Assembly (NCBI RefSeq): GCF_001747405.1
Contig: NZ_CP017305.1
Coordinates: 2,650,001-2,714,000, forward strand
DNA length: 64,000 nt
Reading direction: 5' to 3'
Source: Chlorobaculum limnaeum
GTDB lineage: Bacteria > Bacteroidota > Chlorobiia > Chlorobiales > Chlorobiaceae
The position numbers and the translations under genes are program-made. Every line of letters begins with the position of its first letter. The first letter of the stretch is position 1. This document shows positions 2,456 to 9,890 of the stretch, in pieces. The notes below the pieces were generated by a model that had not been told where the DNA came from, did no database searches, and worked only from the letters and a program-made list of their open reading frames with translations.

Positions 2456-4353
<1,898 letters not shown>

Positions 4354-4506
4354 GGACGCAAGTGATGGGTGAGGACACAGCGGCAATTTCCGGGAGGATT
4401 GCCGTGCGCCTCATGCCGGTTGCCAAAGGTGTGAAGCTAAACAATAGCGGGAGGAAATCCGAATGGAGACCGGCGGAAAGGCTCTTGGTTTTGAATTGAA
4501 CCGACG

Positions 4507-6021
4507 CTAATATGCCCAGGCATTTTCCTTAAACAGTTTGATTTCTTCTGGCTGAACCTTTTCCGGCACGTCTTCAGCATCAGCAATCACAATTTTGCTA
4601 ACATCCAAGACTTTCTTGAGAGATTCATCTGTAATCCAAGAAGATTCCCAGAGTTGAGATGCTGCTCCATTCACAATTTGACAAATAGGCTCATTACTAT
4701 CCAATACAAACCCAACTGCCCTTGGCTTAGTAACACGCTGTAACCAAACTTCCAGATAACCATTGTACGGAACTCGCCTCATTTTTTCTCTTACGCTTGT
4801 CCACAAACGAATTTTCTCTTCACTTGGAGCAAGCGAGATCAGATGACTTAAAATACTGGCCACAGCAGGAAAAGTTGAAGGAGAAACAAACGCGATATCA
4901 GTTGCAATCGCCACCTGAACATCGAGATCATAAGGAGCTTTAGTCTGCTGTGATATACAATCGTAAAAATCACTGACCAAACGCCGCAAGGCCCCGCTAT
5001 TTGGGAACCGTTGACCAAAAGAGTGTAATCTTAATAATTGCTTTTGAATCGTCGTTTCGCTTGATTCTCCGAGGTCTTGCAAATCAAGACCTGCCAATTT
5101 ATCCGGTTTTATTGAACCCTCCACCACGTTTCTACAAGAAAAAGTTTTTGATACGCCGAGCTTCATACCAACAACGTGCAACTTATCGCTAATCACTTTT
5201 AGAACCCTTTCTGCATCTTCGTCACTATTTGCAAAGACTCTATAGTCATCCCTATATCGGAGTACACGAGCATCTTTTTGATTAATCTGTTCCAACTCTT
5301 CATTGATTAATTTATCAACAAAACCAAGCACAAGCTCCGCAATAAAGTCCATAAGAACTGAACCTTGTGCAATTCCATTTGTCTGGCCATAACGACCAGC
5401 CCTAATATGAGAATCTATTTTATCCCCAAGTTCCGTTTCTTTATTCTTTTCATCTTTAGATTTTAAGCCATGCAATGCCCATACGATACTATGAGTGTAT
5501 AAAGAACCATAACAGTCCGTCACATCAGTATGCAAGAGATGGCTAAACTTAATCGAATAGCTTAATGATTTTTGCTCAACAAGCTGCCACCAGCTCCTAA
5601 TTTGCGTTGCAACGTCTGACTGGTGATCAACAGACATCACAGGCGCACTACAACACTCAACAAATCCATTCTCAAAGTCTTTAACTCTTTTTTTTATGGT
5701 GTCCCAATTATTCTTTTCACAAACAACATTAACCAAAGAAACATATATCACCGGATGCATCAGCTCATATGGCCGCCAAGCAAATCTTCCGTCTTTATTG
5801 GCAATAAATTTATAGTTCACATCAGGAAGATCACTAGGCTTTAACTTTTTTTTATCATAGAACCGAGGCTGATTGTAAAATCCGCGCTTAAGAAATGATG
5901 CAACATCTTTTAGTATTGGCTCAAAACTAATATAGTTAGGAAAATCTCCATTAAAATAACTACTACCTTTTAAAAAATGCGACTTCGCCTCATCACTTGT
6001 AAGATCGATCAACCTTCTCAT
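4507..6021 (-). CDS. Reverse transcriptase, candidate defence-type (unknown group)
   Basis: A 504-residue RNA-directed DNA polymerase. Palm motifs are clear: TDVTDCY at residues 165-171 (motif A, Asp166), GIAQGS at 216-221 (motif B) and RYRDDYRVF with the catalytic YRDD at 256-259 (motif C). About 230 residues follow that look largely helical and match no maturase, endonuclease or integrase domain I know. That layout, a palm without a mobility domain and with a helical tail, fits the abortive-infection and unknown-group (UG/DRT) reverse transcriptases better than group II introns, and no msr/msd-like pair of long inverted repeats is evident. The gene is far richer in A+T than its neighbours and follows an exonuclease gene by 84 bases. 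The subtype cannot be assigned by eye. Anti-phage function is inferred from family and context. Confidence 0.85.
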   Translation of the reverse strand: MRRLIDLTSDEAKSHFLKGSSYFNGDFPNYISFEPILKDVASFLKRGFYNQPRFYDKKKLKPSDLPDVNYKFIANKDGRFAWRPYELMHPVIYVSLVNVVCEKNNWDTIKKRVKDFENGFVECCSAPVMSVDHQSDVATQIRSWWQLVEQKSLSYSIKFSHLLHTDVTDCYGSLYTHSIVWALHGLKSKDEKNKETELGDKIDSHIRAGRYGQTNGIAQGSVLMDFIAELVLGFVDKLINEELEQINQKDARVLRYRDDYRVFANSDEDAERVLKVISDKLHVVGMKLGVSKTFSCRNVVEGSIKPDKLAGLDLQDLGESSETTIQKQLLRLHSFGQRFPNSGALRRLVSDFYDCISQQTKAPYDLDVQVAIATDIAFVSPSTFPAVASILSHLISLAPSEEKIRLWTSVREKMRRVPYNGYLEVWLQRVTKPRAVGFVLDSNEPICQIVNGAASQLWESSWITDESLKKVLDVSKIVIADAEDVPEKVQPEEIKLFKENAWAY

Positions 6022-6105
6022 TAGCCTACACTTGTATAGATTAATCTTATCAATTACCGTTTGAGATAAAAGCCTATCTCACACAGCCAAAAAAACAAAA
6101 AATAC
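6022..6105 (-). other. Hairpin-bearing spacer between exonuclease and reverse transcriptase
   Basis: The 84-base AT-rich gap upstream of the reverse transcriptase holds a perfect 7-bp inverted repeat (TGAGATA at 6062-6068, TATCTCA at 6075-6081, loop of six) and, nearer the start codon, a weaker CTATAC/GTGTAG repeat. A run of Ts precedes the hairpin on the coding strand. Several DRT-type reverse transcriptases use a structured RNA encoded beside the gene, so this is one place to look for one, but the spacer is short and could simply be a leader. Confidence 0.25.
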
Positions 6106-6672
6106 TCACATATAACCCTCTATACACCTCATAACCTCTCGTGTCGCCTTTATATCCGACATTGCGTCATGAGCACTATTCAACTCAACACCAAAGTGCG
6201 CACACACTGTTTGAAGCTTATAATTCTCCAATGCAATCTTATCAAGATAATCCATATAATACAACAGCGGCAAGAGATCGATCCTTTTCCAGTTAACAAA
6301 AGACCCTATCCCATACTGATCATATCGACGAAACATTTTGTTTAAAAAATCAAGATCAAACTGAACATTGTACCCAGCCGGGTAAAATTTATCTTTACGA
6401 TCGAAACGAGAAACATATTGCGCAAGAAAAGAGTCTATTTTTCCGTATGCCTCATCGTGCGGCATAAACCCCTGAATTTCCTCTCTACTAACACCATTAA
6501 CAACAAGTGCATCTTCCGAGATAAGTGCCCCTTGATGCGGCTGCATCTTTATTTCCAAAGTATCAACCAACTCTCCATCAATCTCAACAATTGCTGCGAA
6601 TTGGATAATACCGTGACGATCAGAATCAACTCCGGTTGTCTCAACATCAAACCATAGGATTTTTTTCATCAT
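6106..6672 (-). CDS. DnaQ-like (DEDDh) 3'-5' exonuclease
   Basis: This protein of about 188 residues carries all DEDDh exonuclease motifs: FDVETTG at its N terminus (Asp9 and Glu11), NVQFDLDFLN in the middle (Exo II) and HDAMSDIKAT near the end (Exo III with His and Asp). It lacks any polymerase or tau-binding extension, so it is a stand-alone nuclease, acting on DNA or RNA. I set the start at the ATG-ATG pair (6672/6669) because the exonuclease fold begins there; an in-frame ATG at 6711 would add a hydrophobic stretch unlike the family. It is AT-rich like the reverse transcriptase gene that follows it and is probably in one transcript with it. Confidence 0.82.
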   Translation of the reverse strand: MMKKILWFDVETTGVDSDRHGIIQFAAIVEIDGELVDTLEIKMQPHQGALISEDALVVNGVSREEIQGFMPHDEAYGKIDSFLAQYVSRFDRKDKFYPAGYNVQFDLDFLNKMFRRYDQYGIGSFVNWKRIDLLPLLYYMDYLDKIALENYKLQTVCAHFGVELNSAHDAMSDIKATREVMRCIEGYM

Positions 6673-6762
6673 ATAGAAAAGTGAAAACACCAATATTTGA
6701 AAAAAAATCATTCAAAAAAATCTACTTCTAATCATTGAAACAGTCAAGCTAATTGCTCGCCC

Positions 6763-7023
6763 TCACCGGTAAACCTCTCTCCGATGCCCGACCCGAACGA
6801 CAAGAACTGAAACGGTCTCATCGCGGATTTCGCAAATCACCCGATAATCCCCTATTCGATACCGCCAGAGTCCGGCATGATCGCCACGTAACGCCTTGCC
6901 CGATGAGCGGGGGTCGATGGCTACGCGCTCTCGCAGGAATTTGAGAATCCGCTTTACAGCGGCTTTATCCAGCCTGGAGAGCTCTTTTTCTGCTGACGCG
7001 GCAAACTCAATCTTCCAAGTCAA
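6763..7023 (-). CDS. RelE/ParE-superfamily toxin
   Basis: An 86-residue basic protein of the RelE fold, most likely a ribosome-dependent mRNA interferase that stalls growth when its antitoxin is lost. The sequence begins [19 protein letters not shown] and contains the usual [18 protein letters not shown] core and the C-terminal [13 protein letters not shown] strand, with the Arg and Tyr residues active in RelE proteins all present, so it looks intact. Its start overlaps the end of the antitoxin gene by 17 bases, the classical antitoxin-first arrangement. Base composition is close to the host background, unlike the downstream exonuclease and reverse transcriptase genes. Confidence 0.9.
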
Positions 7024-7255
7024 GACGACGCTCCACTTCGTCTATATCGGACACCGCCTCCTCACCCCGCCTGACGCGTTCGAGAACCTGTTCTGCCAGA
7101 TAAATATCTTCAAGATCATCGAGATGCTCCATGATCGCCTCGCGAATATACCAGGTCTTGGTGCGGCCAGTTCTTTTGGCAAGGTTATCCAGCCGCTGAC
7201 CTACGCTCTTCGGAATACGAATTCCGATCATCTGATCCGCTTTTTCCTTTTCCAT
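7007..7255 (-). CDS. Ribbon-helix-helix (RelB/CopG-type) antitoxin
   Basis: An 82-residue acidic-tailed protein. The N-terminal half ([20 protein letters not shown], then [13 protein letters not shown]) is a ribbon-helix-helix DNA-binding domain; the C-terminal half (residues about 50-82) would wrap the RelE toxin encoded next. It is the first gene of a two-gene operon. Such antitoxins repress their own promoter, and a pair of 8-bp repeats lies directly upstream at 7270-7296. Confidence 0.88.
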
Positions 7256-7269
7256 AGCCCTCTCGTATT

Positions 7270-7296
7270 ACATGTTAGTCAATGCAGAACATGTTA
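7270..7296 (-). promoter_or_regulatory. Candidate antitoxin operator (paired ACATGTTA repeats)
   Basis: Two identical 8-base repeats, ACATGTTA at 7270-7277 and 7289-7296, each containing the palindrome ACATGT, sit 14 bases upstream of the antitoxin start with 19 bases (about two helical turns) from centre to centre. That phasing suits cooperative binding of RHH dimers. No footprint is known; the assignment is inferred from position and symmetry. Confidence 0.4.
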
Positions 7297-7544
7297 AGCA
7301 AAAAATACGCCTATGGCAAATAAACCCGCCGTACTGACCTGCATGCAAAGAGTTGAACCTAACCTCGCGCCACTGGAACAAGGCTATGATGAAGAGCGTC
7401 GCATTCCGGGTTTCACTTTTCGAGAACCGATCAATGGATAAGGGATAAAGAAAAGGCAATGAAGGACTTAACATGACCACCGCTGCCCGGCGCGAAAGGC
7501 ATTCAGCCCTTCGTCAAAGCCGGCGCAGCGGTTCCCGAAAAACG
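7297..7544. other. Intergenic stretch without a recognised gene
   Basis: Between the toxin-antitoxin operon and the VWA gene I see no convincing coding sequence. A long imperfect inverted repeat (ACCGCTGCCCGGC at 7479-7491 and GCCGGCGCAGCGGT at 7519-7532) lies just after the VWA gene's stop codon; it could act in termination or mRNA stability, but it lacks a T tract and has a loop of 27 bases. Confidence 0.35.
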
Positions 7545-8780
7545 TTATTTGTAGCTGAAATTCTTCTTCGCCGCCTGCGTGCGCAGGTTTTCGAGAATCA
7601 CCGTTCCGAGGCTCTTTGAATCGACGGTTTCCCGCTCTTTCGCCTGAACATAGGCATCCCGCTTTTTGCTGAGCGCAGAAATCTGCGCTTTCAGGCTTTC
7701 GCGCTCCGCTTTTTTCTGCTGCACATAGCTGCCGATCTCTTTATCCGATTTGCCTTTCAGCTCATCGGGAAGGCCGTCCTTTTTGATCCCCTCGACCGTA
7801 ACGCTCTTGTTGTCGATGGTATCGACAAGGTCCCAGCCGGAAGCCTTGTACAAGGACGAACCTTTCGAGGCAGCCCGTTCAGCCGCAACCGGTGCCGACA
7901 TTGCCGCGGCGTTCCGATCCTGCATTGACTGTCTGGCCAGTCGCTCTTTACCCTTTTCGCCATAGGGCACATAGGTGTCGTTGAGCCTGCCATTGAGCCT
8001 CATGAGGTCATCATCATAGGGCGTCACAATGCCTGGCGTGCGCTCGTCGCTGTCGATGGCAAAATAACTGCCCCCGCCGATTGTAGCGCCTCTTTTCCAG
8101 AGCCCCTGGACACCGGCATAATAGTCGCCGCAATAGATGGTATTGACCGCGACATCACACTCGGCAGCCCAGCGGCATGCCGCCTGATAGCTTACTTCAC
8201 CCTGGTCGAAAGGCTCATTGCCGGCAATGTAAATCAGCGTCAGCCCATTACGGGAGCTATTCCATTTCAACTGGTTCAGACTGCTGCCGATCACGTGGCC
8301 GCAATACTCCGAGCCACCGTTGGTTGTCAGCGAAAAGAGCGCTTCGGAGAGCAGATCGAGATCCTCGGTGAACGGGACAACCTGACGAATATAGCCAGAT
8401 CTGGCAGAGAGGCCGTTGTTGCCATACTCGTACAACGCAACCTGCAACCGGATCGGCTCACCCCTTTTACGCATTCTCGACACCTCGTTGACAATGCGCC
8501 AGAGCTGGCTCTTTGCCTGACTGATCAGGCCATCCATGCTGTTGCTGGTATCGAGCAACAGTGCGAGCTGCACCAGCCTGTAGTCCGACGGGCACTGCCC
8601 TTTGACTGGCCTCAGGTTGTCATACTCCTGCGCATACTTCGCGAATGTCTTTCTCAGAGACTGGTCGCGAATTTGCCGCGCTTCGGAACATCCGGCTTCG
8701 GTTACAGGCTTGGCTTCGAGGATTGCTTTACCGGGAAGAACGGTGGCCGCCAGCAGAAATGAGATCAGTTGTTTTTTCAT
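7545..8780 (-). CDS. Exported von Willebrand factor A-domain protein
   Basis: The 411-residue protein begins MKKQLISFLLAATVLPGKA, a probable Sec signal peptide, so it should act in the periplasm or outside. A VWA domain follows from about residue 70, with the MIDAS motif DTSNSM after LVQLALLL and a second metal-coordination region around TTNGGSEYCG; the domain binds metal and mediates protein contacts. The C-terminal third (about 310-411) is Lys/Glu-rich and likely coiled coil. I use the ATG at 8780, since a longer open frame upstream would bury the signal peptide. Partner and function are unknown; neighbours give no hint. Confidence 0.75.
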   Translation of the reverse strand: MKKQLISFLLAATVLPGKAILEAKPVTEAGCSEARQIRDQSLRKTFAKYAQEYDNLRPVKGQCPSDYRLVQLALLLDTSNSMDGLISQAKSQLWRIVNEVSRMRKRGEPIRLQVALYEYGNNGLSARSGYIRQVVPFTEDLDLLSEALFSLTTNGGSEYCGHVIGSSLNQLKWNSSRNGLTLIYIAGNEPFDQGEVSYQAACRWAAECDVAVNTIYCGDYYAGVQGLWKRGATIGGGSYFAIDSDERTPGIVTPYDDDLMRLNGRLNDTYVPYGEKGKERLARQSMQDRNAAAMSAPVAAERAASKGSSLYKASGWDLVDTIDNKSVTVEGIKKDGLPDELKGKSDKEIGSYVQQKKAERESLKAQISALSKKRDAYVQAKERETVDSKSLGTVILENLRTQAAKKNFSYK

Positions 8781-9053
8781 CGGAGGGTCTGTGTATGGGT
8801 TGGAAAAAGCCTGTATCCTTTTGACGCGGCTCTGGATACCCTCTTGTGCACCCATTTGAAAATTGATCTCCGTGTGCGCGACCTCCGTAAGGCCGTATCA
8901 CAATTCATTCACCAAAATCCACATTCACTCCTCGTCATCCCCGGTTATCGAGCAGTCCCGGCCAACGAGCTGCCACCGTTATCACAGCTTCTTTTACCGG
9001 CACCGGAGTGCTCTCCTGAAAAACGAGTGAGCCCCACGCTTTTCATTACCAGG

Positions 9054-9086
9054 AAAAGCCGGCTTGACCGCGTATTGCCGGTTTTT
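9054..9086 (+). terminator. Terminator-like hairpin between divergent genes
   Basis: AAAAGCCGGC (9054-9063) pairs with GCCGGTTTTT (9077-9086) with one mismatch around a 13-base loop, and more Ts follow. The form is that of a bidirectional rho-independent terminator, yet both flanking genes point away from it. It may end an unannotated small transcript or protect either gene from readthrough. Confidence 0.45.
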
Positions 9087-9122
9087 CTTTCCCCGGCCAT
9101 TAGTGACCTGTTTGCTATGGTT

Positions 9123-9151
9123 TTGTCTCAATGAACCTCTACCTTTAATTT
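9123..9151 (+). promoter_or_regulatory. Candidate sigma70-type promoter
   Basis: TTGTCT (9123-9128) and TAATTT (9146-9151) are separated by 17 bases and lie 55 bases upstream of the small gene that starts at 9207. Spacing and sequence suit a housekeeping promoter, but this is a pattern match only. Confidence 0.35.
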
Positions 9152-9206
9152 AATGAGAGGGTTACCCTGTTTTTTTCTTTTCAAACCAACACTCGGGAGG
9201 TTACTC

Positions 9207-9434
9207 ATGGCACGAAAAGTTGTCGCACAGTATGCGGTGTTTCATAACATCGGAGGCACATCCAGCATTATTTTTTATTACGAGGGCGGGGGAGCTGATT
9301 CGGTTTCGGATATTCCTTATGGCGAGGCGCAACATATCATCGACCTGCTGCGTAATGAAAAGCCGATGTCGTATGACCACAGCCAGAAACGGCTTTCCAC
9401 CTATACTCCGGAACCGGTCGGCGAAGGGGAATAA
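9207..9434 (+). CDS. Small conserved-looking protein of unknown function
   Basis: A 75-residue protein (MARKVVAQYAVFHNIGGTSS at its start). The ATG at 9207 has a strong ribosome binding site, GGGAGG at 9195-9200, and a candidate promoter upstream, which together make it likely to be expressed. The sequence suggests two beta strands, a glycine-rich turn (YYEGGGADSVS) and a helix (GEAQHIIDLLRNEK), with no signal peptide or membrane segment. I do not recognise the family. It stands alone between the divergent VWA gene and decayed sequence. Confidence 0.6.
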   Translation: MARKVVAQYAVFHNIGGTSSIIFYYEGGGADSVSDIPYGEAQHIIDLLRNEKPMSYDHSQKRLSTYTPEPVGEGE

Positions 9435-9509
9435 ACCATGAGGCGAGAATCCTGAACGGAGCCAGGCGATCTTCGGGAATAATGTGGAAGATCCCTGGCG
9501 TTATGCTAC

Positions 9510-9776
9510 GTGCCTGCCGGTGCTGATTCTGGTCAAAAATTCCGGTATCGACAGACAATACTCGAACGCTGGAAGCAGCTTTTCGGCGGTCTGGCGCTCG
9601 TGCCGGAGCAGATCAAGGGCTATCCGGTGATCGTGAAAATAAACGGCAAGTTCAGGGCGCAATGAACGATGATGCGCCGTTCCTGTGCTCCCGAAATTCT
9701 CACGGAACAAACCGCCCGACTCATTGCCAGGGCAGGCGCTTTTCCTGACAACATCCGGCCATCGACTCCGCCCTGA
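9510..9776 (+). pseudogene. Decayed coding sequence, origin unknown
   Basis: Upstream of cysS several short frames read like pieces of real proteins: one ends with LALVPEQIKGYPVIVKINGK and stops at 9663-9665, and a second, from the ATG at 9669, contains LTEQTARLIARAGAFPDN and stops at 9776. Neither has a proper start with a ribosome binding site, and the frames do not join. The most economical reading is a degraded gene in the 456 bases between 9435 and 9890; I do not recognise the parent family. Confidence 0.22.
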
Positions 9777-9890
9777 AAAATCAGGAACGGGCAGCCGCTG
9801 AAAAGCCTTGTCATAACATGCCAAATGTTTAACTTTTACGACATTTCCCGGTCATCGGGCCGGGATTCGCCAACCTATTTCGCTATCCGG

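Follow-up and report, generated by a model that had tools for sequence, protein, structure and literature searches.

An Abi-P2 reverse transcriptase gene with a phage-type exonuclease neighbour at a variable defence site of Chlorobaculum limnaeum

The 64,000-nucleotide stretch of Chlorobaculum limnaeum DNA analysed here (the window) carries a small AT-rich cassette of two genes that is best explained, with a probability that we put at about 0.75, as a horizontally acquired Abi-P2 polymerase accompanied by a phage-type exonuclease, which is not part of the definition of Abi-P2, at a defence hotspot beside engB. What is new here is an Abi-P2 copy with an unusual exonuclease neighbour of single origin, not a new kind of system. 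A first-pass annotation had described two adjacent genes on the same strand, the first encoding an exonuclease with DEDDh residues and the second a reverse transcriptase (RT) with a YRDD motif. Both open reading frames are confirmed (Table 1), the exonuclease having an alternative in-frame start upstream (ATG at 6711) that would extend the protein to 201 aa.

Table 1. Features of the cassette and its surroundings (positions in the window)
Feature	Position	Strand	Remarks
engB (GTP-binding protein gene)	3775-4386	minus	conserved; anchors the variable defence site
Two-gene AT-rich cassette (exonuclease and RT)	4467-6760		about 2.3 kb, between engB and relE
RT gene	4507-6021	minus	504-aa ORF, 84 nt after the exonuclease gene
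Intergenic stretch between exonuclease and RT genes	6022-6105	minus	84 nt
DEDDh exonuclease gene	6106-6672	minus	188-aa ORF, first in reading direction
relE/parE-type toxin gene	6763-7023	minus	cassette neighbour
relB-type antitoxin gene	7007-7255	minus	cassette neighbour

The reverse transcriptase and the Abi-P2 family

Judging from its sequence, the RT of the window is a full-length Abi-P2 abortive-infection RT and belongs to an already characterised family. It matches the PADLOC AbiP2 model with 612.7 bits (E=1e-184), residues 1-501 of 504 being aligned with profile positions 4-487 of 489, and the next-best PADLOC family, UG14, scores 152.7 bits. Among solved structures, the sole strong match is the Abi-P2 protein of E. 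coli (7r08; E=4.9e-68, residues 1-497), and the protein of the family encoded by an E. coli phage is about 29-31% identical. A maximum-likelihood tree of 41 RTs splits 33 Abi-P2 sequences from 8 other UG-type RTs (branch support 96/97) and nests the window RT with proteobacterial and plasmid Abi-P2 proteins (support 99/91; 100/100). Model scores and tree thus bear out the earlier view of an RT of the UG/DRT (Abi/UG) kind and not of a retron or group II intron. The placement by profile search and phylogeny proposed at that stage confirms the UG/Abi lineage but not the unknown type then suspected, the RT falling inside the clade of Abi-P2, a characterised family (PMC9508834); nor can the protein be called uncharacterised, since Abi-P2 is established as an RT of abortive infection and its structure has been solved (7R08). 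Two other assignments were tried and rejected, namely a retron (retron_St85 at 23 bits against a cut-off of 235, no Rfam RNA match, and upstream DNA not conserved) and a group II intron RT (TIGR04416 at 35.4 bits against a cut-off of 300, with the maturase domain absent). The Pfam domain search of the RT detected neither a maturase nor an endonuclease domain.

Abi-P2 is known to form a trimer, to prime on Tyr61 and to synthesise DNA without a template (PMC9508834), and the copy from the E. coli P2 prophage provides resistance to T5 (PMC11077055). In the window RT, the catalytic residues D166 and Y256-R257-D258-D259 (the YRDD motif) are invariant across 19 Abi-P2 proteins, as is Y30, which aligns with Tyr61 of 7r08 and is the putative priming tyrosine. 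The position of another Abi-P2 tyrosine, Tyr46, is occupied by a histidine, consistent with the published finding that loss of Tyr46 had no effect (PMC9508834). For the C-terminal part of the RT, where Abi-P2 has a helical domain instead of a thumb, the sequence alignment with 7r08 reaches residue 497, and the AlphaFold2 model (mean pLDDT 49.8) is of too low quality for a judgement of the fold. By homology, the RT would form a trimer, prime on its own Y30 and make untemplated single-stranded DNA, a product that in infected cells would lead to abortive infection or growth arrest. We infer polymerase activity and phage resistance for this RT, expression of the two genes as an operon and whatever link may exist between RT and exonuclease. 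The protein resembles the Abi-P2 of the E. coli P2-like prophage in its full-length homology, YRDD motif, priming tyrosine and lack of maturase and endonuclease domains, but it is encoded in the Chlorobaculum chromosome instead of a P2-like prophage, is preceded by a DEDDh exonuclease and belongs to the proteobacterial and plasmid sub-branch of the family.

The short stretch separating the two genes has no conservation with the upstream regions of other Abi-P2 loci and, on the minus strand, no promoter-like match, the promoter and terminator scans giving results no better than shuffled sequences. A conserved noncoding RNA upstream of the RT was also considered and rejected: similarity among Abi-P2 upstream regions is found only between the two Chlorobaculum relatives, and an Rfam scan of positions 3800-7600 returned nothing above the gathering score. 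DRT9 and DRT3a, by contrast, use a noncoding RNA template, of which none was found at this locus.

Borders of the cassette and turnover of defence genes beside engB

The cassette differs strongly in composition from its surroundings, as noted in the first-pass annotation. The GC content is 39.2% in the RT gene and 39.5% in the exonuclease gene against 55-61% in engB, purA, cysS and relE, and 51-55% in the relB/relE pair next door; at third codon positions it is 33% and 37%, respectively, against 73-84% in engB, purA and cysS. Comparison with relatives devoid of the two genes delimits the cassette on both sides. In four of them (G052, G063, G106 and G110), blastn homology upstream of engB ends at positions 4463-4467, and in a fifth one (G312), where the relBE neighbours occur without the cassette, homology resumes at 6760, just past relE. 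Because homology stops and resumes at these borders, the exonuclease and RT genes make up a single unit of about 2.3 kb. Composition and borders agree with the proposal that the RT was acquired horizontally together with the exonuclease, and both observations are consistent with a joint arrival of the two genes beside engB.

The interval between engB and cysS (window 4386-9825) carries differing cargo across Chlorobaculum genomes. At the same site, other members of the genus have a type III restriction-modification system with an HKD/Snf2 protein, PD-Lambda-4, an AbiJ-like Abi_C protein with a trypsin-like protein, a zeta toxin, or an AT-rich nitrilase-like gene. The site beside engB is a rotating defence hotspot in Chlorobaculum, and this turnover supports a defence role of the cassette, for which it is the best contextual evidence; the defence context initially proposed for the locus is in line with these neighbouring genomes.

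Several observations concern the site itself. Four relatives share a common breakpoint some 80 bp upstream of engB. In three relatives, a partial second copy of the 5' part of engB precedes the complete gene (L003 1120-1302 and 2630-3205; L120 3979-4116; L121 9279-9452) and is separated from it by a VOC-family gene and an 82-aa ORF, an arrangement suggesting that recombination or insertion makes use of the 5' end of engB. The AT-rich insert of G110 at this site (L118 7510-10066; 35% GC) contains two ORFs, one of 495 aa whose nitrilase-like match to DRT-associated nitrilases is weak (22.8 bits), and a second one downstream, of up to 395 aa, which matches no family and has a HEPN-like look on inspection by eye; the two are possibly an undescribed defence pair.

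The exonuclease and its association with Abi-P2

The 188-aa protein appears to be an intact, stand-alone, phage-type DEDDh 3'-5' exonuclease of the DnaQ/RNase_T fold. It scores 66.3 bits against Pfam RNase_T (PF00929; cut-off 24; E=6e-18), its best family match is phrog_192, "DNA polymerase exonuclease subunit" (132.8 bits), and its DEDDh residues (D9, E11, D106, H168 and D173) are all invariant in the alignment. An AlphaFold2 model (pLDDT 71.0) matches RNase T, oligoribonuclease, DnaQ and the nuclease part of ExoI, and as a prediction confirms only a generic DnaQ fold. Two more specific identities were discarded. The PADLOC model of CRISPR-associated DEDDh proteins matches at 85 bits, but the neighbouring genes read include no cas-like gene. 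Membership in RTasSbcB, the RT-associated SbcB-like nucleases, in which a DEDDh exonuclease domain likewise occurs close to a defence RT, was rejected since the match (36.7 bits) covers only positions 3-188 of the 436 in the profile, that is, the N-terminal nuclease part; the window protein is short, stands alone and is of the phage type.

Among 395 sampled genomes of the phylum, clear relatives of the exonuclease were found in 16 other genomes of the same family and in the same-genus relative, and a weak one in three more distant genomes. Of those with 44-53% identity, most belong to prophage replication operons that also contain Erf, RusA, DnaD-like, Gam and small-terminase genes; the window gene, with its phrog_192 likeness, differs in being detached from a prophage and placed beside an RT. 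Those with 60-66% identity are stand-alone, and several adjoin a helix-turn-helix or WYL-like regulator; in five genomes with such stand-alone relatives (G075, G060, G102, G028 and G090), at least three of the genes adjoin the same helix-turn-helix regulator. No RT was found beside any of the exonuclease relatives with an RT model that recovered all 15 control loci.

The pairing of RT and exonuclease is not conserved among the sequences sampled. Its second occurrence is in one Chlorobaculum sp. MAG, where the pair again sits between cysS/relBE and engB, with an exonuclease 90% and an RT 95% identical to those of the window; because this sole other case is the same site in a same-genus relative, the pairing counts as one event. 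In the MAG, the exonuclease is intact but the RT gene is interrupted by an insertion sequence, so that a benefit of the cassette is not evident in the only relative that bears it. The interruption lies around codon 213-222 and shows a short overlap resembling a target-site duplication (L004 6148, L003 129); intact copies exist elsewhere.

Outside Chlorobaculum, the exonuclease is absent beside the closest RTs, from proteobacterial MAGs (73% and 70% identical, the flanks available for the latter being limited to about 1.7 kb upstream and 0.4 kb downstream), and beside the plasmid copies of Agrobacterium (61-67%) and Paracoccus (51%). In 14 other genomes with Abi-P2, RNase_T genes are located on other contigs, are more than 100 kb away from the RT, or are absent, most of these genomes having RNase_T-domain genes elsewhere. 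None of seven plasmid or phage Abi-P2 loci has an exonuclease homologue nearby, with a negative whole-record RNase_T check for six and, for the E. coli phage locus, a check by the exonuclease model and annotation only. A scan of virus contigs that returned nothing with a single RT query recovered, with an alignment query, 32 Abi-P2 records that form 17 clusters at 90% identity, and an RNase_T domain occurs anywhere in 0 of the 32. The literature on Abi-P2 with an exonuclease yielded incidental mentions only. Another genus of the same family has a distant Abi-P2 (G173 C37; 39% identity) with no exonuclease neighbour and one stop codon inside the scanned match.

The first-pass annotation had taken the pair for a possible new variant or module, and the adjacency of the two genes on one strand in one cassette would suit a new DRT type composed of an RT and a separate DnaQ-like nuclease. 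This reading, which we regard as highly improbable, is largely refuted by the standard Abi-P2 nature of the RT and by the absence of the exonuclease from its nearest relatives, from all other loci sampled and, as any RNase_T domain, from the viral records. The co-occurrence check proposed at the outset found the exonuclease beside the RT only in the window and at the orthologous site of the MAG, and its absence from close homologous loci is an outcome that the first-pass annotation had itself named as refuting.

Between these two relatives, both cassette genes are under purifying selection, with a dN/dS of 0.18 for the exonuclease and of 0.18 and 0.32 for the two halves of the RT. The dS of the cassette genes (0.07-0.26) is lower than that of cysS and engB (0.42-0.57), with purA (0.30) near the exonuclease, so that exchange of the cassette genes within the genus is possible.

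Possible roles of the exonuclease

We rate a passenger or loosely linked status of the exonuclease as the most likely one, at roughly even odds. A gene of prophage recombination or replication left beside the RT by chance, with a function of its own or none, has about one chance in two in our estimation: the pairing is confined to one orthologous site, the relatives lie in prophage operons or beside unrelated regulators, and none adjoins an RT. By contrast, the persistence of an intact, selectively constrained exonuclease in both genomes, even where the neighbouring RT is broken, as well as the cassette borders and AT content common to both genes, count against mere chance. Shared composition, a single cassette and purifying selection on both genes leave room for some functional link. 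In the sequence of events that we favour, a gene from the prophage pool would have joined this Abi-P2 copy in one Chlorobaculum lineage and, if it contributes at all, would most likely carry out 3'-5' trimming of the single-stranded product of the RT.

An unlikely but more specific role is that of a dedicated off-switch that would degrade Abi-P2 DNA in uninfected cells until phage infection, for example through a DNA-end-binding protein of the phage or an overload of single-stranded DNA, relieves the restraint and the cell arrests. Such restraint is exerted by ExoI (sbcB) on DRT9 (PMC12483538) and by RecBCD on DRT3 (PMC13174585), so that a possible likeness to these systems would be an exonuclease keeping the DNA product of the RT low. 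The window genome has no ExoI, its sole and sub-threshold match to the ExoI model being this exonuclease, whose predicted fold resembles the ExoI nuclease domain (TMq 0.71-0.77), and the presence of both genes in one cassette of like composition also points in this direction. ExoI and RecBCD are host housekeeping enzymes that, unlike the exonuclease of the window, are not encoded beside the RT. Against this role, the 14 other Abi-P2 genomes also have no ExoI above the cut-off and no adjoining RNase_T exonuclease, so that Abi-P2 does not in general depend on a partner of the ExoI kind. Other RNase_T-domain genes are present in most of them, and the same exonuclease family persists in genomes without Abi-P2. 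We consider even more doubtful that the cassette is a self-contained Abi-P2 variant whose exonuclease, taken over from a prophage, acts as a built-in antidote, replacing the absent host ExoI; were this true, a phage blocking or diverting the exonuclease would set off the defence.

The locus provides green sulfur bacteria with an example of Abi-P2 outside a prophage and reveals the engB-cysS interval of Chlorobaculum as a site of defence-gene swapping. The adjoining exonuclease also offers a test case for the idea that some defence RTs come with a nuclease of their own to degrade their product, to be compared with ExoI for DRT9 and RecBCD for DRT3.
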